This document shows, one piece after another, positions 23 to 18,611 of a stretch of 18,978 bases of DNA. The position numbers and the translations under genes are program-made. Origin of the DNA: an uncultured Leucothrix sp. (GTDB lineage: Bacteria; Pseudomonadota; Gammaproteobacteria; Thiotrichales; Thiotrichaceae). Position 1 is the first letter of the stretch; each line of letters opens with the position of its first letter. The stretch lies in the NCBI GenBank assembly GCA_938004025.1, contig CALKXC010000440.1, positions 1-18,978 on the forward strand, given 5' to 3'. Under the pieces are notes generated by a model. The model did not search any database. It saw only the letters and a program-made list of their open reading frames with translations, and was not told the origin of the DNA.

Positions 23-98
23 GGCCAGGTAGCTCAGTCGGTAGAGCAGGGGACTGAAAATCCCCGTGTCGGCAGTTCGATTCTGTCCCTGGCCACCA
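23..98 (+). tRNA. tRNA-Phe (anticodon GAA)
   Basis: This is a complete 76-nt tRNA whose 5' end GGCCAGG pairs with the acceptor strand CCTGGCC before an encoded CCA at 96-98. The D-arm, a five-pair anticodon stem (GGGGA/TCCCC), the variable loop and a T-loop with the canonical TTCGATT are all visible. The anticodon is GAA at 56-58, reading Phe codons. It delivers phenylalanine to the ribosome. Its 3' half is duplicated at 18126-18175, so this gene is the chromosomal attachment site of the island and stays intact after integration. Confidence 0.97.
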
Positions 99-100
99 TT
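51..100 (+). other. attL: tRNA-Phe 3' half, 50-bp direct repeat
   Basis: Positions 51-100 are identical, base for base, to 18126-18175. The shared block runs from the anticodon stem to two bases beyond the CCA, and the flanks differ on both sides. Many tyrosine-recombinase elements insert into the 3' half of a tRNA gene and leave such a repeat. I infer that this is the left attachment site and that the DNA between the copies came in as one unit. Confidence 0.9.
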
Positions 101-1061: not shown

Positions 1062-2636
1062 ATGAATCACATAGAATTATTTGCTGGCTGTGGGGGATTA
1101 TCAATAGGTCTAGAAAACTGTGGCTTTGATTTGCTTTTGGCAAACGAATTATCACCCATGGCTGCCGAAACATTTTCGTTCAATTTGTTGGATGAAGATT
1201 TATCGTATTTCGCTGCTAAAAAAAAGCAGCCTTCCAAAACACTATGGATTAACAGCGCGTTTTCTAGCGACGATATAGCACTGCGTTTACGAGAAAATCC
1301 TCAGGCTCTGCCCTCGACCCACCCGAGGCACTGCGATTTAAGTGATTTTGACACTATGCGTGGTAAGTTATTAGTAGGATCGATAATTGATTTAAACGCG
1401 CATCTTAAGGAAAATAAAAAATTAAGTAATCGACTTAGGACGGAGGATGTGGACCTTGTGTCTGGTGGGCCTCCCTGTCAAAGCTTTAGCATGGCTGGAT
1501 TGCGAGAATTAAAAAATTCACGAAATTCACTGCCCATGGAATTTGCCAATTTCGTTGAACATGTAAAACCTAAAGTCGCACTTCTGGAGAACGTTTCTGG
1601 CATATTGCGGCCTTTTACAATAGGAAATAAGCAACATTACGCTTGGTTTGAAGTTGCCCGGGCCTTCGCATCAAAGGGCTATTATCCTCTTTGCTTGCAT
1701 GTAAATGCTAAATACGTGGGTGCAGCCCAAAACAGACCACGCTATATCATGCTGGCATTGCGATCAGACATTTTTAAAAAGCTGTTTAAAAATAGTATGA
1801 ACAACGAACACCTATTAACCTGTTTTAAGAAAATTCAGCGGTTCTTTGAAAGTGAGAGGAAGGGCGTGTCAACGAAACCATTCACAGACCTAAGCTATTA
1901 CGATATCGAGAAAGACGAGCAGATTTTTGAAACTGATCTACTTCAATCGCTAATTACTAACAGGCACGAAGATACTTGGGTCTCAGTCAAGGACGCAATA
2001 GATGACCTTAGGGAAAACCGACGGGGGAACGAAACTGGAGAATACGCTCATTACCTTAGCTCACTATTCCGTTTCAAACTCCAAGATCGTTCTAGAGTTA
2101 AAAATCATGACCAAAGGAGAAACAGTGAGCATGTAAAACAACGCTTTAAGCTTTATCAAAATATTAGTAGAGCGGACGGTAAAATAAAATCTGACACGGT
2201 TAATTACCTTAAAAACCCAGATTCTCATGTACTCAGAAAGGCAACCATAAAATTTCTTCTGAACAAAACATATTTGCATGCCAATGGAACTTGCGAGAAA
2301 TTTTCGAGCACTCAAGATTTGCTGAAGCATCTCGCAGAGCTCAGGACAAAAAAACAAACGCAACGAGCATTGATCGCTTCCAAACCAGCGCCTGCCGCCC
2401 TCTCAATACCGGACGACGCGTGCCATTACCATCCTTCACTTTTACGCACACTGACTGTACGTGAAATGGCTCGATTACAGTCGTTTCCTGATTGGTTCGA
2501 GTTTAGATCTAAGGTAACTACTGGTGGTCAAATGAGAAAATTTGAGGTGCCTCAATACACCCAAGTTGGAAATGCTGTACCTCCACTTTTGGCTAACGCG
2601 TTAGGTATTGTTGTAAAAAAAATACTTGCTCAGTAA
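1062..2636 (+). CDS. C5-cytosine DNA methyltransferase (type II R-M)
   Basis: The 524-residue product should transfer a methyl group from S-adenosylmethionine to C5 of cytosine in a specific DNA site, protecting it from the partner nuclease. The classic motifs occur in order: motif I FAGCGGLSIGLE (7-18), motif IV GGPPCQSFS (135-143) with catalytic Cys139, motif VI ENV (176-178), motif VIII QNRPRYI (223-229), motif IX LTVREMARLQSFPDW (about 464-478) and motif X GNAVPP (about 503-508). The segment between VIII and IX, about 235-455, is the likely target-recognition region. The ATG at 1062 lies only six codons before motif I, as usual for bacterial enzymes, though no clear Shine-Dalgarno precedes it. 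The gene converges on the MvaI/BcnI-like nuclease, 41 bp away stop to stop. It appears intact. The recognition site cannot be read from sequence alone; CCNGG-type sites are plausible given the partner. Confidence 0.95.
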   Translation: MNHIELFAGCGGLSIGLENCGFDLLLANELSPMAAETFSFNLLDEDLSYFAAKKKQPSKTLWINSAFSSDDIALRLRENPQALPSTHPRHCDLSDFDTMRGKLLVGSIIDLNAHLKENKKLSNRLRTEDVDLVSGGPPCQSFSMAGLRELKNSRNSLPMEFANFVEHVKPKVALLENVSGILRPFTIGNKQHYAWFEVARAFASKGYYPLCLHVNAKYVGAAQNRPRYIMLALRSDIFKKLFKNSMNNEHLLTCFKKIQRFFESERKGVSTKPFTDLSYYDIEKDEQIFETDLLQSLITNRHEDTWVSVKDAIDDLRENRRGNETGEYAHYLSSLFRFKLQDRSRVKNHDQRRNSEHVKQRFKLYQNISRADGKIKSDTVNYLKNPDSHVLRKATIKFLLNKTYLHANGTCEKFSSTQDLLKHLAELRTKKQTQRALIASKPAPAALSIPDDACHYHPSLLRTLTVREMARLQSFPDWFEFRSKVTTGGQMRKFEVPQYTQVGNAVPPLLANALGIVVKKILAQ

Positions 2637-2677: not shown

Positions 2678-3880
2678 TTATGACAGTGTATATTCATCTG
2701 TTGTTTCGAATAACAAGGGGATGTATTTTGAGGCCATTTTGAAAAGATAGCCTTGATCTTTTGCAGCCCCAGTAGTAAGTTTTTTAATTGTGTAGTGAAC
2801 AGTTATACTTCCGGATTCTAGTAAAATAGGCAAAGCAGAGAGATCGATACCTCTGGAATGTTTGACGTGTCGATACCAAAATTCTTCACTATCACGCTTC
2901 CCTTGAGTTTCAGCTGATACCCACATTGTCTCTCGATGTTTTTCCTTCAACCTCGCTTGCAGCTTAGCCATCATCCAAAGAACATCGCCACATTTACCGA
3001 CAGGATTATCTGGTGGTACGTAGATCTGATGCAGCTCCGACAGATTTTCTGAAATTTCCAACTGCATATGATAAGAGTTCGGCTTAACACAGCTCATCTC
3101 ATGGAAGAGTTGCTTGCGTTCTTTCTTAACACTGTATTTCCCTCTTGTTTCTAACACTTGATTAGAGCCTTTCAACGCGCTCTTTTTCCAGTCAGGAACT
3201 TGAGAAAACAAGGCAGCTTGCCCGCCGTTCCCGGACCTATATCTACCAGATTTAATTTCGATCCCTTTGAAGTCTGGCTTCTTTGAGTTGTTAGCTTCTA
3301 TTCCTAATAATGACTCTAATGTATACCCAACACCGGTATCTCCAGCTCGCATATTAGGGACAAATCCACGCTTAGAAACTTCGGTAAGTTTCGATAACAG
3401 CTCTAATGCCGCCTCGGACTTGCCAGCTTCAACGATAGGAAAAAATTCGGAAAACTCTTGGTTATCTTTATGCAGTAATTCATCCATATTGCTTTGGGAG
3501 CAATTGACAACAATAAGCCTACCCGCGCTTTCAGCGATTGCAAGTAGGTCGCCAGGAGTCGCAAATTGTTTTAACTTATAAATCCATATCCGGGTGTCGC
3601 CTTCTTTGGAAATTGGTCGATACAGAGATGTTTTAGTTTTTACACTGCGACCCTTGGAGAAAAGTACGGTCGTAACTAGTCGTTTGTTCTCAGGGCCTTG
3701 GCTTTGATTTTCAAAGATATGTACATCTTGCGCTTTCAAAAACTCTCTAATGGAGCCAGTTGCATCCATAATGGATTTGGCTAGCCCGGTTTGAGTGGGG
3801 ACCAAGAATGAAGTTGAGATGCCTCGATTTTTAAAATGCTGCATTACTTCTGGTATGGCAATGTTTGAAAGTGTAAGCAC
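2678..3880 (-). CDS. MvaI/BcnI-family type II restriction endonuclease
   Basis: This 400-residue protein is the likely nuclease partner of the adjacent methyltransferase. Residues about 181-245 carry the hallmark of the MvaI/BcnI family: GVGYTLESLLGIEAN, then PDFKGIEIKSGR with the PD-(D/E)XK catalytic set Asp203, Glu208 and Lys210, followed by LFSQVPDWK. MvaI and BcnI cut CCWGG and CCSGG and act as monomers; cleavage at a related site is inferred. MvaI itself is only about 250 residues, so the first ~150 residues here, including SLYRP near 86-90 and DTRIWIYKLKQFATPGD near 95-111, form an extra domain I cannot name, perhaps for DNA binding. Translation probably starts at GTG 3880-3878, preceded by AGGA at 7-base spacing. 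It is read divergently from the druH-like gene, with about 730 bp between them. The frame appears intact. Confidence 0.88.
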   Translation of the reverse strand: MLTLSNIAIPEVMQHFKNRGISTSFLVPTQTGLAKSIMDATGSIREFLKAQDVHIFENQSQGPENKRLVTTVLFSKGRSVKTKTSLYRPISKEGDTRIWIYKLKQFATPGDLLAIAESAGRLIVVNCSQSNMDELLHKDNQEFSEFFPIVEAGKSEAALELLSKLTEVSKRGFVPNMRAGDTGVGYTLESLLGIEANNSKKPDFKGIEIKSGRYRSGNGGQAALFSQVPDWKKSALKGSNQVLETRGKYSVKKERKQLFHEMSCVKPNSYHMQLEISENLSELHQIYVPPDNPVGKCGDVLWMMAKLQARLKEKHRETMWVSAETQGKRDSEEFWYRHVKHSRGIDLSALPILLESGSITVHYTIKKLTTGAAKDQGYLFKMASKYIPLLFETTDEYTLS

Positions 3881-4609: not shown

Positions 4610-7600
4610 ATGACAGACTTATTCGAGGAATGGAATCTGATACTGCTTAAGGAATACTTTACGCCGGCCGTCGCCGGTGAGGAAGTTTGGATTCAAACTA
4701 GCCGAAGTGAGTTAGATGCGTTTGGTTTTCACTTGGGCGGCGCTGCGGGACTGATTGATACAGTAAAGTTGGGCCCCACATGGTATCGAATGGGCAACAC
4801 AGATTTGGCTCAAAATGCTATGAGTTTGGCTAAGTTTAGACTCTCTCCAACGAAGAGGCCTTTACGTTATCAAGATCCTGGCGACACTTCTGAGTTTTAC
4901 AAGCAGCTTCACGCCCCAACCTATCTTCCCTACGTTGCGTTATGGGTTCTAGCTGCCTCGCAGCAGGAATCGGAAGGTTTTTACAAAACAGTTGGTGGAC
5001 TAGTTGGTTTCGAATTTCAAGGCTCTGCTGCCCGTAAGGCCATGGAAGTGCTTTGGCAAGATCTAGAATTTTGGTCCAAAAAGCAGTGTCAGGGTCAGTT
5101 TGGTCTCTTTTATTCCAAACCGCTCGGTGCTCACCCCTATGTTGGGTTAGCCAAAGCGCAAGCTTTAGTGACAGGTAAAGATAGGGAGGGTATGCATCGG
5201 CTGTTCAAGCAAGAAGGGCTAGCTGGGGGGCAAGCGTTGTCAGATGAGGAATTTTCAATGCTGGCGAGTGTAGGAAAGAACTCTTACTACCTCAGCAAAA
5301 GCTTATGTGAAGCGATGGGCAAGCTAGAGACTTACGGTTCTGTTTTGCAAGAGCTGTTCAGTTCACGGTTGCTCGAATGGAACGGCCGAATATCAGCAGC
5401 TCAAACTAGTGGAACGAATCCAAATAGTATTGGCGCTGATGATGATCAGCATATCCACGAAATAGAAGATGAACTCTCTGTTGTGCTTAGACCAGCCTTT
5501 GAAACTGACTGGGAGCTAGGATGGCGCTTTGAATCAAGCGCGGATGCCGAGGGGTATACGCTAGATATTGGCAATTCGATTTACCGTGGGTGCCTCAATG
5601 CGACAACCGGATACGTCACATGCTTAGATCCGGCGAATGACAAGCAGCTTGCAGTCCAATCTGTTTTCAATTCTCCAGCTGATCATGAAACGATTGCCGC
5701 CGTCGGTTACATAAGAGATGGCGATGAAAACGGACAGACCTCAAGATCCTATATTTTTCGCTCTAAAAGTACCCGACTATTTGGTTGGGATGCACTTAAC
5801 CCAATTCATGCACAGGAGCTGGTAGAACGAACATTACCGGTTGCTGGCCCGGTGTATTTGCTTTCCTCTGCCACAACGGTCTTTGACTGGCTTGATAAAA
5901 ATAACATTGAACATAGCCGAGTAGAAGAGAAAAAAGGTCTACCGGAAGGTTGGAGTCTCTGTGCAGTACTTCGTGTTGAAGATTTATCTCTTGCGCAAAA
6001 GTCAGCCATTCAGGCTCTTGTGGGTGATCCGGAAGATGGATTTGTCAGGGCTCGAATAAAATTTGTCAGTGGGTGTCCGATACTTCGAGGAGGGAAAAAA
6101 CAATACGCCGATTATGATTTGCCATTGGTTGAATTGGATGCACCCATCGGATGCGAAGTCGAGGCTGATGGGCTGCGCCTCGAAGAAGTAACGCTATCGA
6201 ATTCAATCTCCAGTGATGTTCATCAATCTAGTATACGGCGCTTTGTAATTCACCGAGAGAGCCATGAAAGGCACCGTTTTGAACTAATCGCCACGCTGAA
6301 CCAAGGTATCTTGTGCAAGGCTACTTTGAAAGTCGCTTTGTCTGTTGGGTTAGAAGCTAGCGCGGGGAAAGCCTTTGCCATAGATCGATTTGGTGAGTCT
6401 CACCGATCTGTTGGCGGAATCCGCGGCGCGATACTGGATGATAATATTGAGCGAACTACACCACCCGTGTTTAGAACATTTGCGGGAACAGCGTCATGGG
6501 GAAGGCCGACTTCGCTGGATGAATATGATCAATACGTTAAGAGCAATATCGCTTGCCAGTTAGTTGATATGGTAGCGCAGAAGGGCTCGATCGAATATGG
6601 CGCGGCAAAACTAATGATTCTGCGTCTCGCTGATGGCGCTAATGTAAAACCCGCCATATTGATGCTGCAGCTTCGAAGTCGAGGATTCCTTGAAGTCGAG
6701 ACTGATCAAAAAGGGCGCCTTCTTCGATTGCATGCAGCAAGTCCCACTATTTACAGTACCCCTATAACACTTAGCACCGGCGCTCAGTGGTACGGGATAT
6801 GTGGCAGTTTACGACTTGAGCAGTGGAGACAGTTAATTGTTTACACCGGAATTGCAGCTCGAATTGAATTGAGCTCGCCCCAGTACATACCTACTATTCG
6901 ACTATCGGTGACTCATAAGGACACGCTTGCCGGTTTAGTGGAGCACGGAAATTTCCAAATTGTGGATTACCCTGCATTGACGGTTTCAATTTGGGCGTCG
7001 ACTTTGGTGCAGAAGAGACAAAGGCTGCAATCGAATAAGGGATATGAGAATTTTAGGGTTAACAACCAACAGCGATTAAACCCTCAAAAAGCATTGTTTA
7101 GTTATGACCGTTCAGTTTATATGAAGGTCGACCCTTTTCGGAAGGTTGAGCTGTTTAAAATAGATGATCCGGTTATCCAAGGCAGTCAAGTGTACATGTT
7201 AGGCTCGCTAGTCGATGAGGGGGAGGAGTATAACTATATTCAAGATTCGAGGTGGGGAGTGTGGTTGGCAATCTCTGCTTTTTCCCAAATGCTATTAGAG
7301 CAGGGATATGATTCAGTCGCATACCCTTGGCCCATTCCCTACGCACAACGTGACGGTTCGTTTTGGCTGCCAGCTAGGCTGAAGCCACCTGTATTGCTTG
7401 AGCGTGCGCTGTGCTTTTCTTCCGGTGGCCAACCAGAGCAAGTTCGCGTTAAAAAGATCGCATCAATGGATGAAGATTATGTTGAATTGGTTGATGCCGC
7501 AGCTAACGATCAGCCCATTGGAAAAGTAAGTCGCCTTTACACTGAGATGTGTGATGGTAAGTGGCTCCGCTACCCCTATGTACCCGAAGAGTTGGCCGAT

Positions 7601-7642
7601 TCAGTTGCCACTCATTTGGGGTGTAAACTGATGTACCTATAG
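4610..7642 (+). CDS. druH: DruH-like protein, Druantia type III (unknown function)
   Basis: This is a 1010-residue protein in which I recognise no catalytic motif, signal peptide or membrane segment, so it is probably cytoplasmic. The assignment rests on context: a ~1000-residue protein of unknown fold directly upstream of a ~2100-residue DUF1998-type DEAH helicase is the published layout of Druantia type III (DruH-DruE), an anti-phage system. The N-terminal ~130 residues are tryptophan- and glycine-rich; a short acidic segment lies near residues 284-291. No Shine-Dalgarno precedes the ATG at 4610, but a short upstream frame ends across it (ATGA overlap), so coupled translation is possible. 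The stop is 31 bp before the helicase start, consistent with one transcript. The frame is open throughout. DruH has no known biochemical activity, so no reaction can be given. A homology search against known DruH would settle the name. Confidence 0.72.
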   Translation: MTDLFEEWNLILLKEYFTPAVAGEEVWIQTSRSELDAFGFHLGGAAGLIDTVKLGPTWYRMGNTDLAQNAMSLAKFRLSPTKRPLRYQDPGDTSEFYKQLHAPTYLPYVALWVLAASQQESEGFYKTVGGLVGFEFQGSAARKAMEVLWQDLEFWSKKQCQGQFGLFYSKPLGAHPYVGLAKAQALVTGKDREGMHRLFKQEGLAGGQALSDEEFSMLASVGKNSYYLSKSLCEAMGKLETYGSVLQELFSSRLLEWNGRISAAQTSGTNPNSIGADDDQHIHEIEDELSVVLRPAFETDWELGWRFESSADAEGYTLDIGNSIYRGCLNATTGYVTCLDPANDKQLAVQSVFNSPADHETIAAVGYIRDGDENGQTSRSYIFRSKSTRLFGWDALNPIHAQELVERTLPVAGPVYLLSSATTVFDWLDKNNIEHSRVEEKKGLPEGWSLCAVLRVEDLSLAQKSAIQALVGDPEDGFVRARIKFVSGCPILRGGKKQYADYDLPLVELDAPIGCEVEADGLRLEEVTLSNSISSDVHQSSIRRFVIHRESHERHRFELIATLNQGILCKATLKVALSVGLEASAGKAFAIDRFGESHRSVGGIRGAILDDNIERTTPPVFRTFAGTASWGRPTSLDEYDQYVKSNIACQLVDMVAQKGSIEYGAAKLMILRLADGANVKPAILMLQLRSRGFLEVETDQKGRLLRLHAASPTIYSTPITLSTGAQWYGICGSLRLEQWRQLIVYTGIAARIELSSPQYIPTIRLSVTHKDTLAGLVEHGNFQIVDYPALTVSIWASTLVQKRQRLQSNKGYENFRVNNQQRLNPQKALFSYDRSVYMKVDPFRKVELFKIDDPVIQGSQVYMLGSLVDEGEEYNYIQDSRWGVWLAISAFSQMLLEQGYDSVAYPWPIPYAQRDGSFWLPARLKPPVLLERALCFSSGGQPEQVRVKKIASMDEDYVELVDAAANDQPIGKVSRLYTEMCDGKWLRYPYVPEELADSVATHLGCKLMYL

Positions 7643-7673: not shown

Positions 7674-10600
7674 GTGTATAGAAAATTAGCAACAGACCCT
7701 GTCGGGGCATGGGATGAATTGCAAGACTATCTTAAAAAATATGTAACCTCGGCTTTTGGAACGAACTCCACGAGCTTTGAGAATGAACGCAAAGCCCTAC
7801 TGGATACACCTGGCGTATTTTTTCAACAACCGTATTTGGAATTATTACCTGAGTACAGGTCTGGAGAAGGGCTGCGTGATCTCACTGCAGCAGATGTTCC
7901 AAATCTGTCCGAAGAGGCGCGTGATGCATTTTTCCAATTGGCAAGCGTGGCCCTTATTCCAAGTGAGTTCAACCTCTTTTCGCATCAACAAACGATGTTA
8001 CGAGAGGCGCTGGTTGGAAAGCACTGTGTGGTTGTCACTGGTACTGGCTCCGGTAAAACTGAAGCATTTCTACTACCAGTCTTAGCAGGGATTATTAGAG
8101 AAGCGAAGTCTGGTAAGGCTGGCTGGAAAAAAGCGGAATCTTCTGTAGTTTCTGCATGGAGTAAGAATAATATCCCTAAATGGGATGAGCGTCGGACAGA
8201 AACTCGCTCGGAGAGTCGAACGCCTGCGGTTAGGGCGCTGCTGCTCTATCCCATGAACGCGTTAGTGGAAGACCAAATTTCACGGCTTCGCGCAGCACTT
8301 GATTCTGACTCAGCACACATCGTTATGGATAAGTACCTTGACGGTAATCGCATTAGGTTTGGACGATACAACGGCAGCACACCAGTCGCAGGGCACCCCT
8401 TTCAAATAAGTGGCGACGGTCAAGTTGAAAAGAATAAGTCCAAACACACTGAGCTGCGAAAAGCACTGAAGAGTGCTATTAGCCAGTACGAGGATTTACG
8501 GGAAAGAATGGCGACCAAGGAGCAAGAACTTACTTTGGCGCGACAGGTGGGTGATCGGGAAGCAATTGCAGCAGCGCAAAAAATACTTAAGCAGTTGGCG
8601 GAGCAAAGTACGTTTATTCCCAGAATGGATGTCAATGCCAGCGAGATGTATCACCGATGGGAGATGCAGGAGTGTCCGCCTGATCTATTGATCACCAACG
8701 TTAGCATGCTATCCATTATGCTCATGCGAAATTTGCACCCTGAACTGGATAACGATCGTGCAGATGCGATGATATTTGACAAAACCAAAGAGTGGTTAAA
8801 CGAAGATACCGAACATCATGTTTTTCATCTAGTCATTGACGAATTACACCTCTATCGAGGCGCTACTGGAACAGAGGTTGCCTACTTGCTGCGTCAACTT
8901 CTGGATCGGCTGGGCCTTGGGCCCGATAGTCGCCAACTACGCATCCTTGCATCGAGTGCCTCTTTAGACGGTAAGAGTGATTCTACTTATGAATTTTTGG
9001 GTGGAATGTTTGGTCTTAGTGCGGATGAAGCAAAAAATTGTTTTCACATAGAAGATGGGGAGTTACGGTATTCAGCAGAGAACTTATCGGATGGTTTGAA
9101 AAACGACTTTGGAACAGAGTTAGCCGCGCAGTGCCTCAAGATTGGTCAAAACGCGAAGGGGTTGCAAGAGGTCACACCTGCGCACAGAGACGCAATCATA
9201 AAGTCCTTGACGATGTTGGCCGACACACAAAAGCTAGAAACTTTCGCCAAGGCGTTCATAGATTTGGATCAGAGGAGGTTTGTGGCGCGCAGCATGACAA
9301 GCTTGGCGCAGAGCTGGTTTCCAATGTTGGACAGTCCTGAAGATCAATTGTTTGCTGCTCGTGGGTTGTGCCTTACGCTTGGGGTAGGCTCAGAATCTGC
9401 TCATCAAGCCGATTTAGCATTGCCAAGGATCCGGTTTCATTGGATGGTGAAGAACATCAATGGCCTTTGGTCAACCATCAGGCTTGGAACTGCGGATGGT
9501 GAGGACACTGAGCGGCGCGTTGGAACGTTGCTTGCTGAACCTGCCATGAGCTATCGAGGCAAAAGGGTCTTGGAAGTTTTGTATTGCGAATGCTGTGGCA
9601 CACAGTTGTTGACCGGTTATAAAATCCCTATTGATCGAGGAAATCGCTTTGAGTTAGCTAACCTTCCGGCTGCGCTTGAGGGTATGCCTGATGAAGCTGT
9701 CCAGTCGCGTACCGATTCACAATCGTACGAGGCGCTGGGTGTGCTCTACTTATTACCTGAAAATGCTAGTGCCCCTGATGCAGCCAAATTAGAATGGCGC
9801 CATGGGTCGATAGCACAATCAGGTAATGGTCATCCGCTAACGCGCTGCGTTGCACGTTGGCAAGAGGCCGTTGTGAATCCAGATACTGCGATTGTTGAAC
9901 TTGGTGGAGTCGTCGACGATCGGAATTTGCGCTGCTTGTGGTTTGAGATAGCGGTGAACGCAGAAGAGCACTCAGACTATTCAGCGATGCCTCAAGTTTG
10001 TCCTAAGTGTTGTATCAATTATTCTGAGAGGCGTGGTGGTAAACGATCGCCAGTAAGGGCGTTTGCGACCGGTCTAACGCAAATATCGTTATTACTCACA
10101 AAGCATCTTATGATGTCGTTGCCTGAAGGTGATGCAAGAAAATTAGTGGCTTTCTCGGATAGCCGGCAGGCAGCAGCCAAGCTGTCGAACGATATCGAAG
10201 AAGAACAATGGCGCCACTTACTTCAATATTTTATTTTAAGTGAGATACGGAGTAGAGCAGGTGATGAGGTTGTTTCGCTCAAGAAAGAATGTTTGGATAG
10301 GGTCAGAAAATCACAAGCTGATAATGATTGGTTAGTTCAAGTTAGATCAACTCTGGATGAAAAGGGTTGGGAAGATTTTCACGAATTTTATACTGACGTA
10401 AACTCTGTCGTTCATAATCCGGATTTAGCAACTGAGAAAGCGAAACGAAAACTAAACCAGATTGAGAATCAAGAATCTGGGGTCATAAGATTAGATGACA
10501 TCTTAGCGATTCCTAACACTGATAAAATGCTGCCTCCAATCTGGAGTAAATTGGCAGCCCTTGGCGTGTCGCCGGCTGGGCCCGAGGTCGGTTTTTTCGC

Positions 10601-13600
10601 TTGGGCAAATCTAATGGAATTCGACACGAATAGTGATTCCAAAGACAGTGTAAAGCTGCGAACGAGTCCGCCTCTAGAGGTTGCTGAGGTCGATTTTCTC
10701 ACCGAAATGGGACTGACATTGAGGAAGCATTCATGGAGAGCACTGTCGGGTAGGCTGCTCTACGACCTTGAATCAAAAGGGTTCGGTTACTTCATCCTGC
10801 CGACAGGGGAGCCAATTAAATTACCTGCCAGTGTTGATGAAGCTCTTTTTCGACAGATTTGCGCAAGCGTCATTCGTATCTTCACCGAGGAATATTGTAC
10901 TGATCCGTATCAGTTCGATCGTGCAATCGATGAGTGGAATAGTGATCACCCCAATGCAGGAACACCTGCTGTAAAGAAGAGACGAGTCTTCAATTACTTG
11001 AACGCCTGTGCCAACGCACAAGGTATTGGGTGGGAGCTCTTAAGAGATGCTGTTCGCGAGACCTTGATCACGGCCGGCCATATTTGGGGGGCGGTGAAGT
11101 TATCCCAACTGTGCGTGAAGGTGGTGGAGCGACAGGCAACGCCTTGGGTATGTATTAACTGCTCGCAGGTTCATTGGCATCCTTCGGGCGGTGTTTGCTC
11201 TCGATGCTGCGAATCGCTAACAACTGAGCCTAATTCGATAAAGACAGCTCTGGACTATGAGCAAGAACATTATTATGCTTCTTTGTCTCAAAAACCCGCG
11301 TCGGCATTTAGAATTCATGCTGAAGAGCTCACTGGTCAAACGGACGACCAAGCGCAACGGCAACGGCACTTTCGGGACATTTTCTATAAAGATGAACTGT
11401 TGGGTGAGCTCGAAGATCAACGACGTGACGTTGTTCCTAAGGTGGACGGTATCGATTTACTCTCGGTGACCACAACAATGGAAGTTGGTGTAGATATTGG
11501 TTCACTGCAGTCGGTATTTCAGGCCAATATGCCGCCTGAGCGTTTCAACTACCAGCAACGCTCTGGTCGTGCGGGTCGTAAACAGCAAGCCTTTTCAGCG
11601 GCGTTGACCTATTGTCGCGGACAGACACATGACCGAATTCACTTCGAACATCCAGAGGAGATGACCAGTGGCATTCCTCCGCAGCCCACTGTCACAGTTG
11701 GTGAAGGTCAAAAAATCTTGGCTGAAAGGCTTATGTCTAAGGAGGTGCTTCGACGGGCTTTTAAAGTAAATGATCTCACTTGGATGGACTCTGGGATACC
11801 AGCGGACTCACATGGCGAGATGGGTACCGTCCAACGCTACAGAGCAGATGAAAATTTGCGATTCGCGCTCGGGCAATGGATAGAGAAAAACCAAGTCGAC
11901 GTTCAACACATTGCTGGCGTGCTGACCAAGGGGACCAAAATTAGGTCTGAGTTGCTGGTTTCTTATATCAACAATGAACTGCTCAGGCGTATAAATAAAT
12001 CCGCAATTGAGGCGACAGATCAATCTCGCGGGCTTGCACATGTATTGGCTGATGCAGGAGTATTGCCTATGTACGGTATGCCTACTGCGATTCGAAACCT
12101 CTTCTTCTACCTTCCTAATGGTAGCGGTAGCCAAGAGCCTAAATCGCTTGATCGCAACTTGGAACAGGCAATCTCAGAGTTTGCGCCGGGCAATGAACTT
12201 GTTTGGGATAAGCGGCTACTGACTCCCATCGGCTTAACCGGACCTATTAGGAAAAATATGAGGTCTCAGAATAACTGGAAAACGGCCTCGACCGCAGTGG
12301 GTGATGTGTCGAGACAAGTGTTTTGCAAGAATTGTCGGTTTTTTCGCATAGTTCCGATCACTGCGGCAGAACTGACAAGCGAAGTAGGCGTTGAGAGATG
12401 TCCAGTATGCGATGTAGAGGATGCCAGAAGTTATGAGGCCGTTACACCTAACGGTTTCATGACTGATTTTGATATTTCAAGGCCATCAAAAGATGCAAGT
12501 TATGACAACGTTGTGTCTTCATATATGGCATCACCGAGTATTGATGCTCAAGAACAGCACCCGCATGGTCGAGCCCAGTTAGCTTTTTCAAGCCAAGGCC
12601 GTGTGTTTCGCATAAGCCAACAAGCCGATGGCACACCTTTCGAATTTGATAGAACCACAAGGCGGAAAACCAAAAATCTTCAATGGGTGCAATCAGAAGA
12701 AGATGAGCTCTGGGTCAAGAGCAACGAAGGCAATGGTACTCGGGTCAGGTTATCAGCATCCAAGACCACTGATTTGCTGAGCGTTCGGTTGATGAACCAC
12801 CAAGGCTTGGCCTTCATCGACGAACGTCGAGAAGTGTCTGCGAGACGGGCTGCCTGGTATTCGGCGGCCACTATTGTCCAGCGCGCGATTGCATTGGAAT
12901 TGGATGTGGATTCAACGGCGATTGAGATCGCGTCAGTACATAGGGTCAATGATGATAAAGATGGAAAAGGGGCTGAACTCTATTTGGCCGATGAGCATCC
13001 TAACGGTGCAGGATTAGTTGGTTGGGCCATGCAAAACTGGACTGAACTATTGGAAGGTTGCACAAGCGCGACGGGTAGTCTGAATCGCATGGGCAGATTT
13101 ATGCGAGATGAATGCGAGCGTGCTGTTGGGGATCAAGATTGGCGAAGCCCTGATGTGCTGCTGAAGGGATTTAGGAATCGCCAGCTGCATGGGTTAATCG
13201 ACTGGAGGCTAGGACTTGATCTGCTAAGCGTGATGAACGACCCAGCGTACATACCAGGTCTTTCGCCGCCTCTGGACGTTCGGGCGGCGGATAAAGAATG
13301 TTGGGAGACACAAGCGCATAGTTTGGCTGAGCAGTTGCTTTTGAGTGTCAGTGCAACTCAGGATTCGAAGCGAATTATGAGTAGTAATGGCATGTTGCAG
13401 GGTGTGATCACACGCGAGAATGAAGTAAAAGTCGCTTATATTGTGTCTCACCCTTTGTGGGAGTTTGACTCGCAAGGACGAGACCCTGTGAGCGAACAGA
13501 TTATTGCTCTGGTAGGGAAAGAATCAGATGTGCAATTAGTGAGATTGTTAGATTCGTTCAACCTTACCCGTAGATTGTCTTGGGTAAGAGTGAACGTGCA

Positions 13601-13925
13601 TCCTTTCTTTCGCGATTTCCCGTTAGACAGTCCAGAGCATGACGATGCAGGTAGGCTTTTCTTAAATGAGTTGGTCAACGGTACCGCAATAGGGTCCACA
13701 TTCGAGTATAAAGAACTGCAATGGACGCGTGTTGCGCAAACCAGTGCGTGGGAAGAGCAAGGTGGAAAGTGGATTATGAGCGATGGGATAATTGAAAGTG
13801 GAGCACCGGCATTTCAGGCGCAAGTACGGTTCGTGCCACCCAGTATTATGATCGTATCTAAAGAGGGAAGGCTTGTACGCGCATCAAGACCAAATTTACT
13901 CGTACTTGCCAAATGCAACAGTTGA
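7674..13925 (+). CDS. druE: DruE-like giant DEAH-type helicase with DUF1998-like region
   Basis: The 2083-residue protein is a superfamily 2 ATP-dependent helicase or translocase. Motif I TGTGSGKTE is at 122-130, motif II DELH at 389-392, motif III SSAS near 427-430, a FSDSRQAAAKL motif near 826-836, motif V TTTMEVGVDIG at 1266-1276 and motif VI QQRSGRAGR at 1294-1302. The two RecA-like lobes are spread over ~1200 residues by large insertions. Cysteine pairs that may bind zinc occur near 636-640 (CECC), 776-779, 1161-1183 (CINC...CSRCC) and 1551-1580 (CKNC...CPVC). DEHPNGAGLVGWA near 1773 is typical of the DUF1998 region shared by DruE, DrmB and relatives. DruE is the defining gene of Druantia; the size and the upstream partner point to type III. 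The start is GTG 7674, after a purine-rich GAAGAGAGAA. The stop is 10 bp before the next gene. A DpdJ- or DISARM-type relative is less likely because their partner genes are absent. Confidence 0.85.
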   Translation: MYRKLATDPVGAWDELQDYLKKYVTSAFGTNSTSFENERKALLDTPGVFFQQPYLELLPEYRSGEGLRDLTAADVPNLSEEARDAFFQLASVALIPSEFNLFSHQQTMLREALVGKHCVVVTGTGSGKTEAFLLPVLAGIIREAKSGKAGWKKAESSVVSAWSKNNIPKWDERRTETRSESRTPAVRALLLYPMNALVEDQISRLRAALDSDSAHIVMDKYLDGNRIRFGRYNGSTPVAGHPFQISGDGQVEKNKSKHTELRKALKSAISQYEDLRERMATKEQELTLARQVGDREAIAAAQKILKQLAEQSTFIPRMDVNASEMYHRWEMQECPPDLLITNVSMLSIMLMRNLHPELDNDRADAMIFDKTKEWLNEDTEHHVFHLVIDELHLYRGATGTEVAYLLRQLLDRLGLGPDSRQLRILASSASLDGKSDSTYEFLGGMFGLSADEAKNCFHIEDGELRYSAENLSDGLKNDFGTELAAQCLKIGQNAKGLQEVTPAHRDAIIKSLTMLADTQKLETFAKAFIDLDQRRFVARSMTSLAQSWFPMLDSPEDQLFAARGLCLTLGVGSESAHQADLALPRIRFHWMVKNINGLWSTIRLGTADGEDTERRVGTLLAEPAMSYRGKRVLEVLYCECCGTQLLTGYKIPIDRGNRFELANLPAALEGMPDEAVQSRTDSQSYEALGVLYLLPENASAPDAAKLEWRHGSIAQSGNGHPLTRCVARWQEAVVNPDTAIVELGGVVDDRNLRCLWFEIAVNAEEHSDYSAMPQVCPKCCINYSERRGGKRSPVRAFATGLTQISLLLTKHLMMSLPEGDARKLVAFSDSRQAAAKLSNDIEEEQWRHLLQYFILSEIRSRAGDEVVSLKKECLDRVRKSQADNDWLVQVRSTLDEKGWEDFHEFYTDVNSVVHNPDLATEKAKRKLNQIENQESGVIRLDDILAIPNTDKMLPPIWSKLAALGVSPAGPEVGFFAWANLMEFDTNSDSKDSVKLRTSPPLEVAEVDFLTEMGLTLRKHSWRALSGRLLYDLESKGFGYFILPTGEPIKLPASVDEALFRQICASVIRIFTEEYCTDPYQFDRAIDEWNSDHPNAGTPAVKKRRVFNYLNACANAQGIGWELLRDAVRETLITAGHIWGAVKLSQLCVKVVERQATPWVCINCSQVHWHPSGGVCSRCCESLTTEPNSIKTALDYEQEHYYASLSQKPASAFRIHAEELTGQTDDQAQRQRHFRDIFYKDELLGELEDQRRDVVPKVDGIDLLSVTTTMEVGVDIGSLQSVFQANMPPERFNYQQRSGRAGRKQQAFSAALTYCRGQTHDRIHFEHPEEMTSGIPPQPTVTVGEGQKILAERLMSKEVLRRAFKVNDLTWMDSGIPADSHGEMGTVQRYRADENLRFALGQWIEKNQVDVQHIAGVLTKGTKIRSELLVSYINNELLRRINKSAIEATDQSRGLAHVLADAGVLPMYGMPTAIRNLFFYLPNGSGSQEPKSLDRNLEQAISEFAPGNELVWDKRLLTPIGLTGPIRKNMRSQNNWKTASTAVGDVSRQVFCKNCRFFRIVPITAAELTSEVGVERCPVCDVEDARSYEAVTPNGFMTDFDISRPSKDASYDNVVSSYMASPSIDAQEQHPHGRAQLAFSSQGRVFRISQQADGTPFEFDRTTRRKTKNLQWVQSEEDELWVKSNEGNGTRVRLSASKTTDLLSVRLMNHQGLAFIDERREVSARRAAWYSAATIVQRAIALELDVDSTAIEIASVHRVNDDKDGKGAELYLADEHPNGAGLVGWAMQNWTELLEGCTSATGSLNRMGRFMRDECERAVGDQDWRSPDVLLKGFRNRQLHGLIDWRLGLDLLSVMNDPAYIPGLSPPLDVRAADKECWETQAHSLAEQLLLSVSATQDSKRIMSSNGMLQGVITRENEVKVAYIVSHPLWEFDSQGRDPVSEQIIALVGKESDVQLVRLLDSFNLTRRLSWVRVNVHPFFRDFPLDSPEHDDAGRLFLNELVNGTAIGSTFEYKELQWTRVAQTSAWEEQGGKWIMSDGIIESGAPAFQAQVRFVPPSIMIVSKEGRLVRASRPNLLVLAKCNS

Positions 13926-13935
13926 ATCGGCAATC

Positions 13936-15591
13936 ATGCCAAAAATAATTGGCCCTATCCCTTATGATAAATGGGAAAAAAGGGTTTGGAATGAACTTCA
14001 GAACCGGTTGCCTGCTAGCTGGAGAGTCGTAAGTAATGTCTCCTATCAGTGGAAAAATACAGACGGTTACTTAAGGGATGGTCAAGCAGATTTCGTGGTG
14101 CTTGCGCCTGGGTTAGGGTTAGCTGTTGTTGAAGTGAAAGGCACGAAGAAAATTTGGGTAGACGATGACGGTATCTGGAACAAGATAGGGTGGAACGGTG
14201 AGAAACTAAAGCTGAAAGAGCCGCCCCCGGAGCAAGCCTGCAGAAATATGCATAACCTCTCAAGCAGAGTCGCCGTTGAGCTTAAGGAGGCTGTGTTCCC
14301 TGGCTTGTTTGGTTGGTTGGTCGTTTATCCTAATGGCGAAGTTCAGGGGAAACTTGACACCTACCTTCCAAGCTCTGTGGTTCAGAAGAAAGACCTACAT
14401 AAAATTAAACACGCGATTGAAAATGTACTTCGGGAACGAGGGAATGCGACAATTGGGAAAAAGTTCACGGATAGCTATACACATAAGGTCGCGCAAATAC
14501 TGTCCAACGCAAATTTTATTGTAAATGCGGTCGATACTGAATTGGATGTAATTGAAGAAGGCGATGATATTGATAAGCTGACAAGGCAGCAGTTTGCGGC
14601 ATTACGCGGGGCTTTTGATTTACCCAGCGTATCGGTTGTTGGGCCTGCTGGCTCAGGTAAGACAATTTTAGCGATGTGGAAACTAGAGGCGATGATTGCC
14701 AGTGGCAGAAAAGCGCTTTTTGTTTGCTATAACACAGCTCTAGCTGACTATCTCAGATATAAACACCACGATATTGCTAGTAATATCGTGAGTATTGACA
14801 ATTACTTTCTAGCAATAACTGAAGTTAGACCTCAAATCGGCAATGACTTCTTCAGAACAAAACTACCAGAGTTGGCTTATATCCCGATAAATGGTATGTC
14901 CGATAGCGAAAAGTTTGATGCCATCATAGTCGATGAAGGTCAAGATTTTGGATTGGCTCGGCTACAAGCGCTTTATTTCCTTCTGAAAGACAGTGGTAGC
15001 TCTCAGTGGTTGGTTTTTTCTGATCAGAGGCAGAACTTGTATCAAGGTGAGCAGACGTATGAGATAGAAGCTGAGGTCACGTTTCGTCTGTACGAAAACT
15101 GTCGAAATACAAAAAAACTAAATTCAGCTACCAACGCGATATGTAAAACAAATGTGATCGCTATGGAAGGTGTTCCCGCAGGCATAATGCCGAGTGTTGA
15201 GTTATGCAAACGTGAGTACATGGCACAAAAAGTCTGGCTGCTAGCGAGCGAATTAAGTCCCGACGGCGGTGCAGTTATACTTTCGCCGTATATGCTCCAT
15301 AATTCCTGTATGAAAGACAGCACGAAAGGGCACGGACTGGAGTTAACGACTGATATTAATTTTCTGGGGAAGTCTGGTTATGTATTCTTTTCAACAATCA
15401 AGTCTTTTAAAGGACTTGAGGCAGGGCATGTTATTTTTATTCATGCTGATGTGCCAGAGGCGAACAAAGCTTTATCGGACGAGGATATTTATGTGGCTTT
15501 TACTCGAGCCAGCACTAGATTAGATGTTCTAACCTCTCAATTAGAGGCACAGACCTGGTATGAGTCCCAGCTATCGGCTCTTTCCTCTTGA
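13936..15591 (+). CDS. NERD nuclease-domain / UvrD-like SF1 helicase fusion
   Basis: From ATG 13936 the product has 551 residues. The N-terminal ~120 residues form a NERD domain, a PD-(D/E)XK-like fold, with QADFVVL (Asp52) followed by VVEVKG (Glu66, Lys68). The rest is a compact superfamily 1A helicase: LTRQQ near 216-220, Walker A GPAGSGKT (236-243), Walker B IIVDEGQD (330-337), VFSDQRQNLYQG near 360, STIKSFKGLE (486-495) and YVAFTRA (519-525). It probably unwinds or senses DNA and cuts it, although NERD cleavage is predicted rather than shown for most members. An in-frame TTG at 13873, inside druE and after a good AGAGGGAAGG, would add 21 residues. I prefer the ATG because the extension lies in druE coding sequence and the family usually begins just before the NERD fold. 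It sits 10 bp after druE, so co-expression with the Druantia-like pair is very likely. All catalytic motifs look intact. Confidence 0.9.
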   Translation: MPKIIGPIPYDKWEKRVWNELQNRLPASWRVVSNVSYQWKNTDGYLRDGQADFVVLAPGLGLAVVEVKGTKKIWVDDDGIWNKIGWNGEKLKLKEPPPEQACRNMHNLSSRVAVELKEAVFPGLFGWLVVYPNGEVQGKLDTYLPSSVVQKKDLHKIKHAIENVLRERGNATIGKKFTDSYTHKVAQILSNANFIVNAVDTELDVIEEGDDIDKLTRQQFAALRGAFDLPSVSVVGPAGSGKTILAMWKLEAMIASGRKALFVCYNTALADYLRYKHHDIASNIVSIDNYFLAITEVRPQIGNDFFRTKLPELAYIPINGMSDSEKFDAIIVDEGQDFGLARLQALYFLLKDSGSSQWLVFSDQRQNLYQGEQTYEIEAEVTFRLYENCRNTKKLNSATNAICKTNVIAMEGVPAGIMPSVELCKREYMAQKVWLLASELSPDGGAVILSPYMLHNSCMKDSTKGHGLELTTDINFLGKSGYVFFSTIKSFKGLEAGHVIFIHADVPEANKALSDEDIYVAFTRASTRLDVLTSQLEAQTWYESQLSALSS

Positions 15592-16466: not shown

Positions 16467-17012
16467 ATGGACTATTTCGAATCAATCGTGAAAACATTGC
16501 TCGAAGAGAACGGCTATTGGTGCCGACAATCTTTTAAAGTAAATGTCACGAAGGAAGAGAAGCGCCAGATAGGCAAACACAGTATCCCCAGACCAGAGAT
16601 TGACGTAGTCGCATTCAAACCAAGTGAAGGACGAATACTAGCTGTAGAGGTTAAATCCTACTTGGATTCACCGGGTGTTAGGGTCGAGGAATTAAAGCAG
16701 CGATATGAGCTGCCAACTGGCCTCTATAAGCTATTCACCTGTGCGTCCTATCGGGATATTCTTTTTAGAGCTCTTGAAAGGGATTTGATGGAGAGTGGGT
16801 TAATCGACAAGCCTTACCCAATCCAGTTAGGTCTGGCAGCAGGAAAAGTATATAAAAAAGCAGAAATTGAGCTAAAGACGTTACTAGAAGATCAAGGTAT
16901 GTTTTTTTGGGGGCCTTCCGATATAAAATCCGGTATGACAAAGCTAGCGTCGAAAGGGTACGAAAATGATCCAGTAGTAATTGCCGCTAAATTATTAGTA
17001 CGTGAAACCTAA
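16467..17012 (+). CDS. PD-(D/E)XK nuclease-like protein, function unknown
   Basis: This 181-residue protein begins with a helix typical of small restriction-like folds (MDYFESIVKTLLEENGYW). It carries PEIDVVAF with Glu44 and Asp46, then ILAVEVKSYLDSPGV with Glu61 and Lys63, the D...ExK arrangement of PD-(D/E)XK nucleases. By this signature it may cut or bind DNA; I do not recognise a named family. There is no membrane or signal segment. The start is ATG 16467. Twelve bases around it are duplicated 16 bp upstream, where a second ATG lies in another frame, and no Shine-Dalgarno is evident, so the start is moderately sure. The DUF2971 gene follows after 72 bp on the same strand, and both lie inside one pair of direct repeats, so they may act together. 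A lone domain of this kind could also be a repair or Mrr-like accessory protein. Confidence 0.7.
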   Translation: MDYFESIVKTLLEENGYWCRQSFKVNVTKEEKRQIGKHSIPRPEIDVVAFKPSEGRILAVEVKSYLDSPGVRVEELKQRYELPTGLYKLFTCASYRDILFRALERDLMESGLIDKPYPIQLGLAAGKVYKKAEIELKTLLEDQGMFFWGPSDIKSGMTKLASKGYENDPVVIAAKLLVRET

Positions 17013-17084: not shown

Positions 17085-17831
17085 GTGTATTTAAATATAA
17101 AAGAATCAAAATACGATCAGCGCATTTACCGAATAATATCCTATGAACGATTTATTGAGCTGTTCAAAGCTAGAAAAAATACGTTGGTAAAACCTAAGTT
17201 ATGGGAAGATACATTCGAAAATTATGCTTTAAAGTCAACGCTGAAATTCCCAGATGAAAGTAAGATAGAGCTAGACACTCATGAAAGATTGTACGGTCAA
17301 TGTTGGACAACGTCAAAAGCGTCTGATGCTATGTGGAGAATATATTCTCAAGATAAGAAAGGAATAAGAATAAGAACAACGGTTGATAAATTGTTGGGTG
17401 GCTTGGATTTGGCCAATGTAAATACAGCCAGGACAATGTCATGTATAGGTAAAGTTGAATACAAATCTGAAATTACGATTATGTCTGAAGCCAGAAAAGC
17501 CTTCAGCCGAGATGGTCGAATGACTTTTGGTAGCTTGTTTCGATCATTGTTAATTAAGAGAAAAGCATTTGATCATGAAAAAGAGATTAGACTGATGTAT
17601 CTTGACTGGGGACATAAATTTCCTTCACAAAGCATTTACTCTTATGAAATCGATCCTCATGATTTAATCACACAAGTTATGATCGATCCTCGTGTGAGTC
17701 ATAGTGAGTACAAGAAAATACAAACAGATATCGTAGAAAAAACTGGGTATATGGGAGATATCAAGCGCTCACTTTTATATAGGCTTCCAGATACTTTAAC
17801 TCTTGAAGTGGATCAAAAATTCACAAATTAG
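17085..17831 (+). CDS. DUF2971 family protein
   Basis: The 248-residue product matches the conserved layout of DUF2971 proteins: IYRIISYERFIELFKARK near the start, KPKLWEDTFEN (36-46), CWTTSKASDAMWRIYS (73-88), KGIRIRTTV (92-100) and KRKAFDHEKEIRL (158-170), with a C-terminal stretch of IDP and SLLYR. The biochemical role of the family is not established to my knowledge; members are common on mobile elements and near defence genes. The start is GTG 17085, with AGGAAAA about 7 bases upstream. The gene is visibly more AT-rich than the druE operon, suggesting a separate origin. It follows the nuclease-like gene by 72 bp without a clear terminator, so the pair may be one transcript. No membrane segment is seen, and the frame appears intact. 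Confidence 0.8.
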   Translation: MYLNIKESKYDQRIYRIISYERFIELFKARKNTLVKPKLWEDTFENYALKSTLKFPDESKIELDTHERLYGQCWTTSKASDAMWRIYSQDKKGIRIRTTVDKLLGGLDLANVNTARTMSCIGKVEYKSEITIMSEARKAFSRDGRMTFGSLFRSLLIKRKAFDHEKEIRLMYLDWGHKFPSQSIYSYEIDPHDLITQVMIDPRVSHSEYKKIQTDIVEKTGYMGDIKRSLLYRLPDTLTLEVDQKFTN

Positions 17832-18125: not shown

Positions 18126-18175
18126 GGACTGAAAATCCCCGTGTCGGCAGTTCGATTCTGTCCCTGGCCACCATT
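18126..18175 (+). other. attR: detached tRNA-Phe 3' half
   Basis: This is an exact 50-bp copy of 51-100. No tRNA 5' half precedes it, so it is not a functional tRNA. It marks the right boundary of the element joined to attL. In the tandem interpretation it is also the left attachment site of the neighbouring element whose integrase fragment follows. Confidence 0.9.
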
Positions 18176-18194: not shown

Positions 18195-18611
18195 CTACTC
18201 CCCGAACTTCGATTGCGCTGGCTGTGACAATCTTGTGTCATCCAGTCGCTTCGCGACTTCCTGCAGATGTTCTCCAGCCATGTGCGCATATCTCAGTACC
18301 ATTTGATATGACGACCAGCCACCCAGCTCCATAAGTTCTTGCAAGCTCGTGCCTCTTTGCACATGCCATGACGCCCATGTGTGCCTAAGATCATGCCAGC
18401 GAAAATCCTCTATTCCCGCTCGATCCAGGGCACAGCTCCACGCCTTGGTTAAAGTGCGTTGAACGGGTCGACCAAGAAAAGTGAAAGCGAACACCTCATC
18501 TATGCCGACACGTCTGTTGCGTATTCCGGTCAAAGTGGCCAGTGATTCCGGAACTAAATGGTCAGTCTTTTCCACCCAACGCTCGAGTGTCGATAGTAGC
18601 ACTAGCAGTGG
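18195..18611 (-). pseudogene. Phage-type tyrosine integrase, 5'-truncated
   Basis: About 135 residues remain of the C-terminal catalytic domain of a tyrosine recombinase. [11 protein letters not shown] supplies His and Arg of the HxxR box, LGGWSS follows with Trp in the place of the usual His/Trp, and RYAH supplies the tyrosine nucleophile. The first catalytic arginine and the whole DNA-binding N-terminal half are missing: upstream, the frame runs straight into the IstB fragment after a stop at 18612-18614. It should be inactive. The gene ends 20 bp from the att copy and points toward it, the normal place for the integrase of a tRNA-targeting element lying to the right. It therefore most likely belonged to a neighbouring, older element and not to the defence island. 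Confidence 0.88.

Follow-up and report, generated by a model that had tools for sequence, protein, structure and literature searches.

What does a NERD nuclease domain fused to a superfamily 1 (SF1) helicase contribute when its gene stands directly behind the helicase gene of a Druantia antiphage system? The question is raised by an 18,978-nucleotide stretch of contig CALKXC010000440.1 from an uncultured Leucothrix sp. (the window), which carries three closely spaced genes on the forward strand. We consider it probable that the third product, here called NERDhel, is a core subunit of the operon and cuts DNA beside the DruE motor. The locus is best classified as a Druantia system of the II/IV type whose third core gene encodes a NERD-SF1 helicase. 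The three genes are as follows.

4610..7642, forward strand: DruFL, 1010 aa, a DruF-DruL-like fusion (partial PADLOC matches)
7674..13925, forward strand: DruE, a YprA-family SF2 helicase, 2083 aa from a GTG start (PADLOC DruE2, Pfam)
13936..15591, forward strand: NERDhel, a NERD-SF1 helicase, 551 aa from ATG, with an alternative TTG start at 13873 (Pfam, PADLOC)

Conservation and co-divergence of NERDhel with DruE

A DruE profile built from a 31-sequence alignment was scanned over the genome contigs of 84,980 species, and the best 80 loci were kept. Ten of these (L002-L008, L017, L026, and L075) carry DruFL, DruE, and NERDhel in the order and on the strand seen in the window, with scores of 2615 to 3240 bits for DruE, 654 to 1199 bits for DruFL, and 674 to 965 bits for NERDhel; in L017, DruE is divided over two open reading frames (ORFs) scoring 1386 and 1500 bits. 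The other 70 loci, hereafter NERD lacking, have DruE scores of 782 to 1415 bits, and none has NERDhel directly beside DruE. Weak NERDhel matches occur in four of them: 3 kb downstream in L011, 1.2 kb downstream in L080, upstream on the other strand in L072, and at 27 bits in L032. The neighbor count that a sequence-only reading of the window had proposed, run here on DruE of the DruE2/DruE4 type, thus gave a divided answer, as the NERD gene is not beside DruE in 70 of 80 loci but stands beside it in 10 of 10 loci of one clade. A FastTree phylogeny of 95 DruE rows unites the window with L002-L008, L026, and L075 on a single branch (support, 1.0). The rows of the tree do not include L001 (identical with the window), L017 (divided DruE), L091 and L094 (DruE below 1400 aa), and L135. 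The NERD-bearing clade occurs, among other hosts, in Burkholderiales, in several gammaproteobacteria of marine origin, in Hydrocarboniphaga, and in a planctomycete metagenome-assembled genome (MAG); Neptunomonas antarctica and Pseudoalteromonas aurantia are two species with an operon of this clade. The divided DruE belongs to the MAG (L017, 4049-10322), where its two ORFs overlap, owing to either a frameshift or faulty assembly.

The intervals that separate the end of DruE from the conserved start of NERDhel in the ten clade loci are 1, 0, 1, 23, 3, 1, 3, 14, 15, and 1 bp. The sequence-only reading had described NERDhel as locked into the operon, and this adjacency in every clade locus, all from other species, bears it out. 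The same reading had allowed for a chance neighbor. The locus does sit in a tRNA-Phe island with other defense genes, but the retention of NERDhel at 0 to 23 bp in 10 of 10 clade loci across diverse hosts contradicts this explanation, which we regard as extremely improbable.

DruE and NERDhel have also diverged together. Across 37 DruE-NERDhel pairs of 41 to 92% identity, the Mantel correlation was 0.967, and none of 2000 permutations reached this value (maximum, 0.25). Eight of the pairs came from the loci and 29 were inferred from an identical length of the longest contig, 29 of the 120 DruE matches listed being paired in this way with one of the 120 NERDhel matches listed. These pairings are strong because shifted controls gave only 0.18 coincidences each. 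By these comparisons, NERDhel is a fixed, co-diverging operon member in this DruE clade.

Gene starts and operon coupling

The stop codon of DruE is TGA at 13923-13925, and the ATG of NERDhel at 13936 lies 10 bp downstream; the ORF list agrees with the coordinates and the gap reported in the sequence-only reading. That reading had also entertained a start inside DruE at TTG 13873. This TTG is in frame and would give a 53-bp overlap with DruE, and the purine-rich stretch upstream, judged by eye, is better for TTG 13873 than for ATG 13936. The homologues, however, favor the ATG. When 30 of them were aligned to the window protein, the first residue fell at the position of ATG 13936 in 24, 3 residues later in 2, and 2 to 4 residues earlier in 2, while the other 2 had 17 to 20 additional residues. 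Because 24 of 30 begin exactly there, ATG 13936 is the likelier start, with TTG 13873 kept as a possible one. Scans for promoter-like sites (7 in the window versus 16.3 in shuffles) and terminator-like sites (15 versus 11.6) were uninformative.

Druantia type of the locus

DruE matched the PADLOC model DruE2 (PDLC00014) at 1574 bits over residues 7-1974 and a second DruE2 model at 1331 bits. It scored 1252 bits with DruE4, 570 bits with DruE1, and 271, 205, and 171 bits with DruE3. Pfam recognized DEAD and Helicase_C domains, and the profile of the window DruE matched PDB entry 9wae_A at 861 bits. This entry and six related ones are solved structures of a 1970-aa helicase.

The gene preceding DruE is strongly diverged from DruF and DruL, and the models match it in parts only. 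Residues 5-456, its N-terminal half, matched DruF4 (90 bits, not over the whole model), and residues 811-953 near the C end gave a weak match to DruL4 (19 bits, E value of 1.2e-4); the protein scored 83 bits with DruF2. Since the relative L016 shows a clear fusion, with DruF4 at 531 bits followed by DruL4 at 287 bits within a single 1017-aa ORF, we read the window gene as a divergent DruF-DruL fusion. Its AlphaFold2 (AF2) model had a mean predicted local distance difference test (pLDDT) score of 77.8, and a Foldseek search with this model gave no match at an E value of ≤0.001.

The sequence-only reading had called the locus Druantia type III and its upstream partner DruH. Neither assignment holds. 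The DruE3 score of 271 bits is weak compared with DruE2 and DruE4, the partner is DruF/DruL-like, and DruH had no PADLOC match among the eight window ORFs scanned. The DruH model PDLC00040 also had no match in the genome of the window, which is 57% complete and in which the control matched nowhere; the remaining DruH models were covered by the scan of the eight ORFs. The idea that NERDhel is the missing third gene of Druantia III fails likewise, because DruE matches DruE3 weakly and its partner gives no DruH match; section 9 of PMC13192584, as excerpted, describes the type III DruE as carrying its own C-terminal phospholipase D (PLD) nuclease. The window shares with Druantia III, a DruH-DruE pair in the available parts of PMC13192584 and PMC13316683, a DruE of the YprA family. 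It has a third gene, which that pair lacks, and its DruE gave no indication of a C-terminal PLD nuclease.

NERDhel was also considered as DruG and rejected, having no DruG match. DruG had no PADLOC match in the eight window ORFs, although a very divergent DruG could escape, and the DruG model PDLC00024 had no match in the genome, where its control matched nowhere either.

The operon is, by these matches, a DruF/DruL-type Druantia related to PADLOC types II and IV. Type IV comprises DruE, DruF, and DruL (passage in PMC8565338), and of these DruE and DruF are recognized in the window by type IV models (DruE4, DruF4). As in type IV, a DruE of the DruE2/DruE4 group is preceded by DruF, to which a putative DruL would be fused here as in L016. 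The window differs in the presence of NERDhel behind DruE, with no DruK found, and in a longer DruE C terminus. Druantia II (DruM, DruF, DruG, and DruE) is treated as a type IV CoCoNuT in the excerpt of PMC12458937. It resembles the window in that DruE2 is the best DruE model and a C5 methyltransferase lies nearby, but the window has no DruG match, carries NERDhel, and has a methyltransferase that fits generic type II models better than the DruM2 model. The locus would define a Druantia subtype only partly matched by the PADLOC models scanned.

Nuclease genes in the position behind DruE

In many NERD-lacking loci, the ORF right after DruE encodes about 330 to 410 aa, and all ten of those scanned matched both Pfam PDDEXK_1 and PADLOC DruK. 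With a profile made from these ten proteins, DruK was found directly behind DruE in 36 of 70 NERD-lacking loci versus 0 of 10 NERD-bearing loci, and in 34 of the 62 NERD-lacking loci having at least 1 kb downstream. The count includes L048 and L070, whose start codons adjoin the end of DruE. Contig ends truncate L014 and L027, and L015 is fragmented. The slot pattern has two exceptions, L011 and L080, the latter with DruK followed by a NERD helicase of another clade. The name DruK did not occur in those papers listed by a literature search that was mostly without subscription papers.

DruK and NERDhel share the operon position and the broad PD-(D/E)XK nuclease superfamily. However, DruK is a RecB/Cas4-like nuclease that lacks a helicase and measures 332 to 407 aa in the ten proteins scanned, whereas NERDhel joins an SF1 motor to a NERD-type nuclease. 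An exchange of this sort appears to have taken place at least twice. Viral contigs L085-L089 group together (DruE1 match of L085, 2061 bits), and DruK adjoins DruE in L086 and L089, as recognized by the DruK profile alone. On the sister branch are L092 (DruE1 match, 1486 bits) and L134 (1528 bits); in these two, and in L135, a NERD helicase adjoins DruE and DruK is absent. By this pattern, a conserved motor seems to be combined with interchangeable nuclease subunits.

C-terminal region of DruE

Two domains lie in the C-terminal part of DruE.

13293..13634, forward strand: PD-(D/E)XK-like domain of DruE, about residues 1874-1987, catalytic motif not conserved
13644..13922, forward strand: extra C-terminal beta domain of DruE in the NERD-bearing clade (length comparison, AF2)

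The PD-(D/E)XK-like domain has no conserved ExK in the NERDhel clade. Section 8 of PMC12458937, as excerpted, reports that DruE of Druantia I/II is predicted to carry an inactivated Vsr domain, and the dead-looking domain of the window DruE matches that prediction. The available text of the same paper does not state what cuts DNA in Druantia I/II. Beyond window residue 1855, DruE extends for 219 to 236 aa in all 9 NERD-bearing loci measured and for 104 to 139 aa in all 38 NERD-lacking loci measured, the latter drawn from L009-L048, with L049-L081 outside the comparison. The extra domain is predicted with a pLDDT of >90 in 7 of 9 ten-residue blocks, and by length it is specific to the NERD-bearing clade.

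In an alternative reading, NERDhel is a DNA-processing helper which resects ends to provide 3' tails for DruE, with DruE or another part as the effector. The layout of a nuclease-motor fusion does resemble that of end-resection enzymes, and the excerpted sections 7 and 9 of PMC13192584 describe a Druantia III DruE that loads on 3' tails and an activity sensitive to host recD loss. We nevertheless consider a helper role unlikely. No conserved motif of an active nuclease was seen at the C terminus of DruE in this clade; if the output is cleavage, it would have to come from another subunit.

NERDhel protein and candidate mechanism

Both halves of NERDhel were recognized above the Pfam cutoffs, in agreement with the architecture given by the sequence-only reading. 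Counted from the TTG, NERD (PF08378) spans residues 33-133, and PF13245 (AAA_19), PF13538 (UvrD_C_2), and PF01443 (Viral_helicase1) lie within about 242-553.

13969..14271, forward strand: NERD nuclease domain, DFVVLAPGLGLAVVEVKG (D...ExK)
14578..15567, forward strand: SF1 helicase core, Walker A GPAGSGKT and DEGQDF

The D and ExK of the NERD domain are invariant in all 31 aligned rows, across which the Walker A and DEGQDF stretches are almost invariant. Among the 120 NERDhel homologues listed, 117 satisfied a strict NERD motif pattern and 119 both helicase patterns. The predicted protein combines D...ExK with SF1 motifs in a single polypeptide and is a member of the NERD-SF1 helicase family. 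PADLOC gave RTasNERD-Hel at 124.5 bits and C3a187 at 73 bits.

A role as a back-up or suicide effector has been proposed for the NERD domains of PglW and DndF in the available passages of PMC12839542 and PMC10853773, and by analogy NERDhel could be such an effector, acting on host DNA or RNA after the main restriction fails. This seems very unlikely to us, as NERDhel is present in every clade locus with a full SF1 motor, and its slot mate DruK is a PD-(D/E)XK nuclease of the RecB/Cas4 kind.

We infer that NERDhel is the nuclease acting in trans from its exchange with DruK, the conservation of its NERD site, and a DruE site that looks inactive. In the mechanism we favor, DruFL would help to recognize or license the target, and the DruE motor would open or track along invading DNA, loading on 3' tails by homology to the Druantia III DruE. 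The PD-(D/E)XK-like domain of DruE would perhaps be structural. NERDhel, standing in the operon slot of DruK in many sister systems, would be recruited, a step in which the extra domain at the DruE C terminus may serve (a guess). DNA would be cut at the NERD site during translocation by the SF1 motor, and the resulting machine with its two motors would somewhat resemble RecBCD. The nearby C5 methyltransferase may mark self DNA. The locus offers a testable candidate cutter for one Druantia clade, NERDhel, and another, DruK, for the sister lineages.

NERD helicases beside other YprA-family helicases

Thirteen plasmid records contained at least 80% of the NERDhel query, and 12 were examined (H63 was left out). 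Nine of the 12 loci have a DruE-like or DrmA/DrmB-like gene (L134, L135, L136, L137, L139 [broken], L140, L141, L162, and L165, with near-copies in L141 and L165), and three (L138, L163, and L164) have no YprA-family neighbor in the fetched flanks. Such a neighbor was present in two of six viral loci from the NERDhel scan (L099 and L101). In genomes of the class, NERDhel matches occurred in 41 of 369, many of them weak or on short contigs, and a YprA-family neighbor was found in 4 of 20 stretches around these matches (L144 and L145, which are near-copies, L146, and L148; L142 was a weak partial case). In a 46-row NERDhel tree, made without L153, L165, matches of <150 bits, and partial matches, NERD helicases of the window kind fall into one group and those of the DruE1-like kind into another, both with a support of 100; the DISARM-like label needs 4 changes. 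The names DISARM-like and DruE1-like rest on profile similarity and annotation (DUF1998 and DUF4338), and L135, which is probably DruE1-like, was placed by its NERD helicase.

The DISARM-like cassette of L136, L137, and L141 consists of genes for a UvrD-like helicase and for DrmA-like and DrmB-like (DUF1998) proteins, then one for a NERD helicase that follows almost without a gap. Its DrmB-NERD end recurs in L162 and L101; in L140, L146, and L148 the NERD gene comes first. On the Leisingera plasmid of L134 (2649-13689), a DUF4338 gene, a DruE1-like helicase gene, and a NERD helicase gene are closely spaced, a possible Druantia I-like variant; we take DUF4338 to be a marker of DruA.

The same combination of NERD and SF1 helicase is found in RTasNERD-Hel, C3a187, and Nhi-like proteins, the likeness to Nhi-like being judged from the published passage in PMC10952713 alone. 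The partner of the DRT-associated RTasNERD-Hel is a reverse transcriptase, whereas that of NERDhel is DruE, and no reverse transcriptase appeared for the eight window ORFs among the Pfam, PADLOC, and NCBIfam rows listed. Could NERDhel then be a self-sufficient Nhi-like defense gene, linked for coexpression or cotransfer but with no mechanistic part in Druantia? NERD helicases without a YprA-family neighbor in the fetched flanks (3 of 12 plasmid loci and four of the six viral ones, including L103, which matched over the helicase part only) are consistent with this, as is the listing of NERD for Nhi-like and Mokosh I in the excerpt of PMC10952713. The fixed order and spacing in all ten clade loci, the correlated divergence, the coincident change in the DruE C terminus, and the use of the DruK slot argue against it, and we judge it to be an improbable explanation, if the best of the alternatives by a narrow lead.

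YprA helicases have nucleases fused to them or encoded in downstream genes, according to the excerpt of PMC12458937. In its sections 5 and 8, TALON and DISARM resemble the window in combining a YprA-family motor with a separately encoded nuclease. They differ from it in their nucleases: for TALON the paper describes a NERD endonuclease encoded within an operon of the TOTE-like kind, and DISARM typically has the PLD nuclease DrmC. The parts of PMC12458937 and PMC10952713 at hand cover both Druantia and NERD and contain no tie of a NERD helicase to DruE that we could find. As a tentative generalization, less secure than the role proposed for NERDhel itself, YprA-family defense helicases with a dead fused nuclease (Druantia I-like and II/IV-like) or a separate nuclease (DISARM-like) might share an exchangeable trans-nuclease slot, which DruK occupies in some and a NERD-SF1 helicase, acquired several times independently, in others. 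The extra DruE domain of the window clade would then be the dock, and the whole a two-motor, one-nuclease, RecBCD-like antiphage machine.

Methyltransferase and tRNA-Phe island

The remaining features of the window are a methyltransferase and endonuclease pair and the borders of the island.

1062..2636, forward strand: C5 cytosine DNA methyltransferase (PF00145, 174 bits; PADLOC MTase_II, 223 bits, and DruM2, 153 bits)
2678..3880, reverse strand: MvaI/BcnI-family restriction endonuclease (PF15515, 184 bits), convergent with the methyltransferase
51..100, forward strand: left border, 3' part of tRNA-Phe, a 50-nt direct repeat identical at 50 of 50 positions to 18126-18175
18126..18175, forward strand: right border, 50-nt direct repeat of the tRNA-Phe end, identical to 51-100

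The methyltransferase ends 2 kb upstream of DruFL. Together with the endonuclease, it probably forms a separate restriction-modification (R-M) module, and the pair also occurs in L003. C5 methyltransferases, counted at >60 bits with a profile made in this analysis, were present in the fetched flanks of 9 of 10 NERD-bearing and 49 of 70 NERD-lacking loci (Fisher P = 0.27), which rules them out as a mark of the NERD-bearing clade only; the single NERD-bearing locus without one, L017, has very short flanks. In L005, L008, and L026, the methyltransferase lies 38 to 573 bp from NERDhel, and these enzymes are about 48% identical to that of the window and 52 to 58% identical to one another. No restriction enzyme was recognized beside the methyltransferase of L008, whose neighbors were not scanned with family models; the next genes are housekeeping-like, one presumably of the yicC type. 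The L004 methyltransferase is a near full-length DruM2 match (629 bits). A 1037-aa protein lies in between in L002, L004, L007, and L075, and the L002 copy matches type IIG enzymes. A candidate role for the C5 methyltransferase is that it may mark self DNA and protect it against the Druantia machine.

The tRNA-Phe gene lies at 23-98, and the 50-nt repeats delimit an island of roughly 18 kb that contains, besides the R-M genes and the Druantia operon, two other ORFs, one of them encoding a DUF2971 protein. No integrase was recognized among the scanned ORFs inside the island. An integrase fragment lies just outside the right repeat (18195-18602, reverse strand), perhaps from a tandem element. 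Behind tRNA-Phe, at 75-290, two adjacent 108-nt copies that are 75% alike, with degenerate repeats of the tRNA 3' end, look like remnants of serial integration. The DUF2971 protein (17085-17831) matches PADLOC PDC-S31 at 300 bits and is a candidate defense gene product. The 181-aa ORF at 16467-17012 has a DUF234 match below the curated cutoff and appears nuclease-like by eye (PEIDVVAF...VEVK), a possible PD-(D/E)XK protein.

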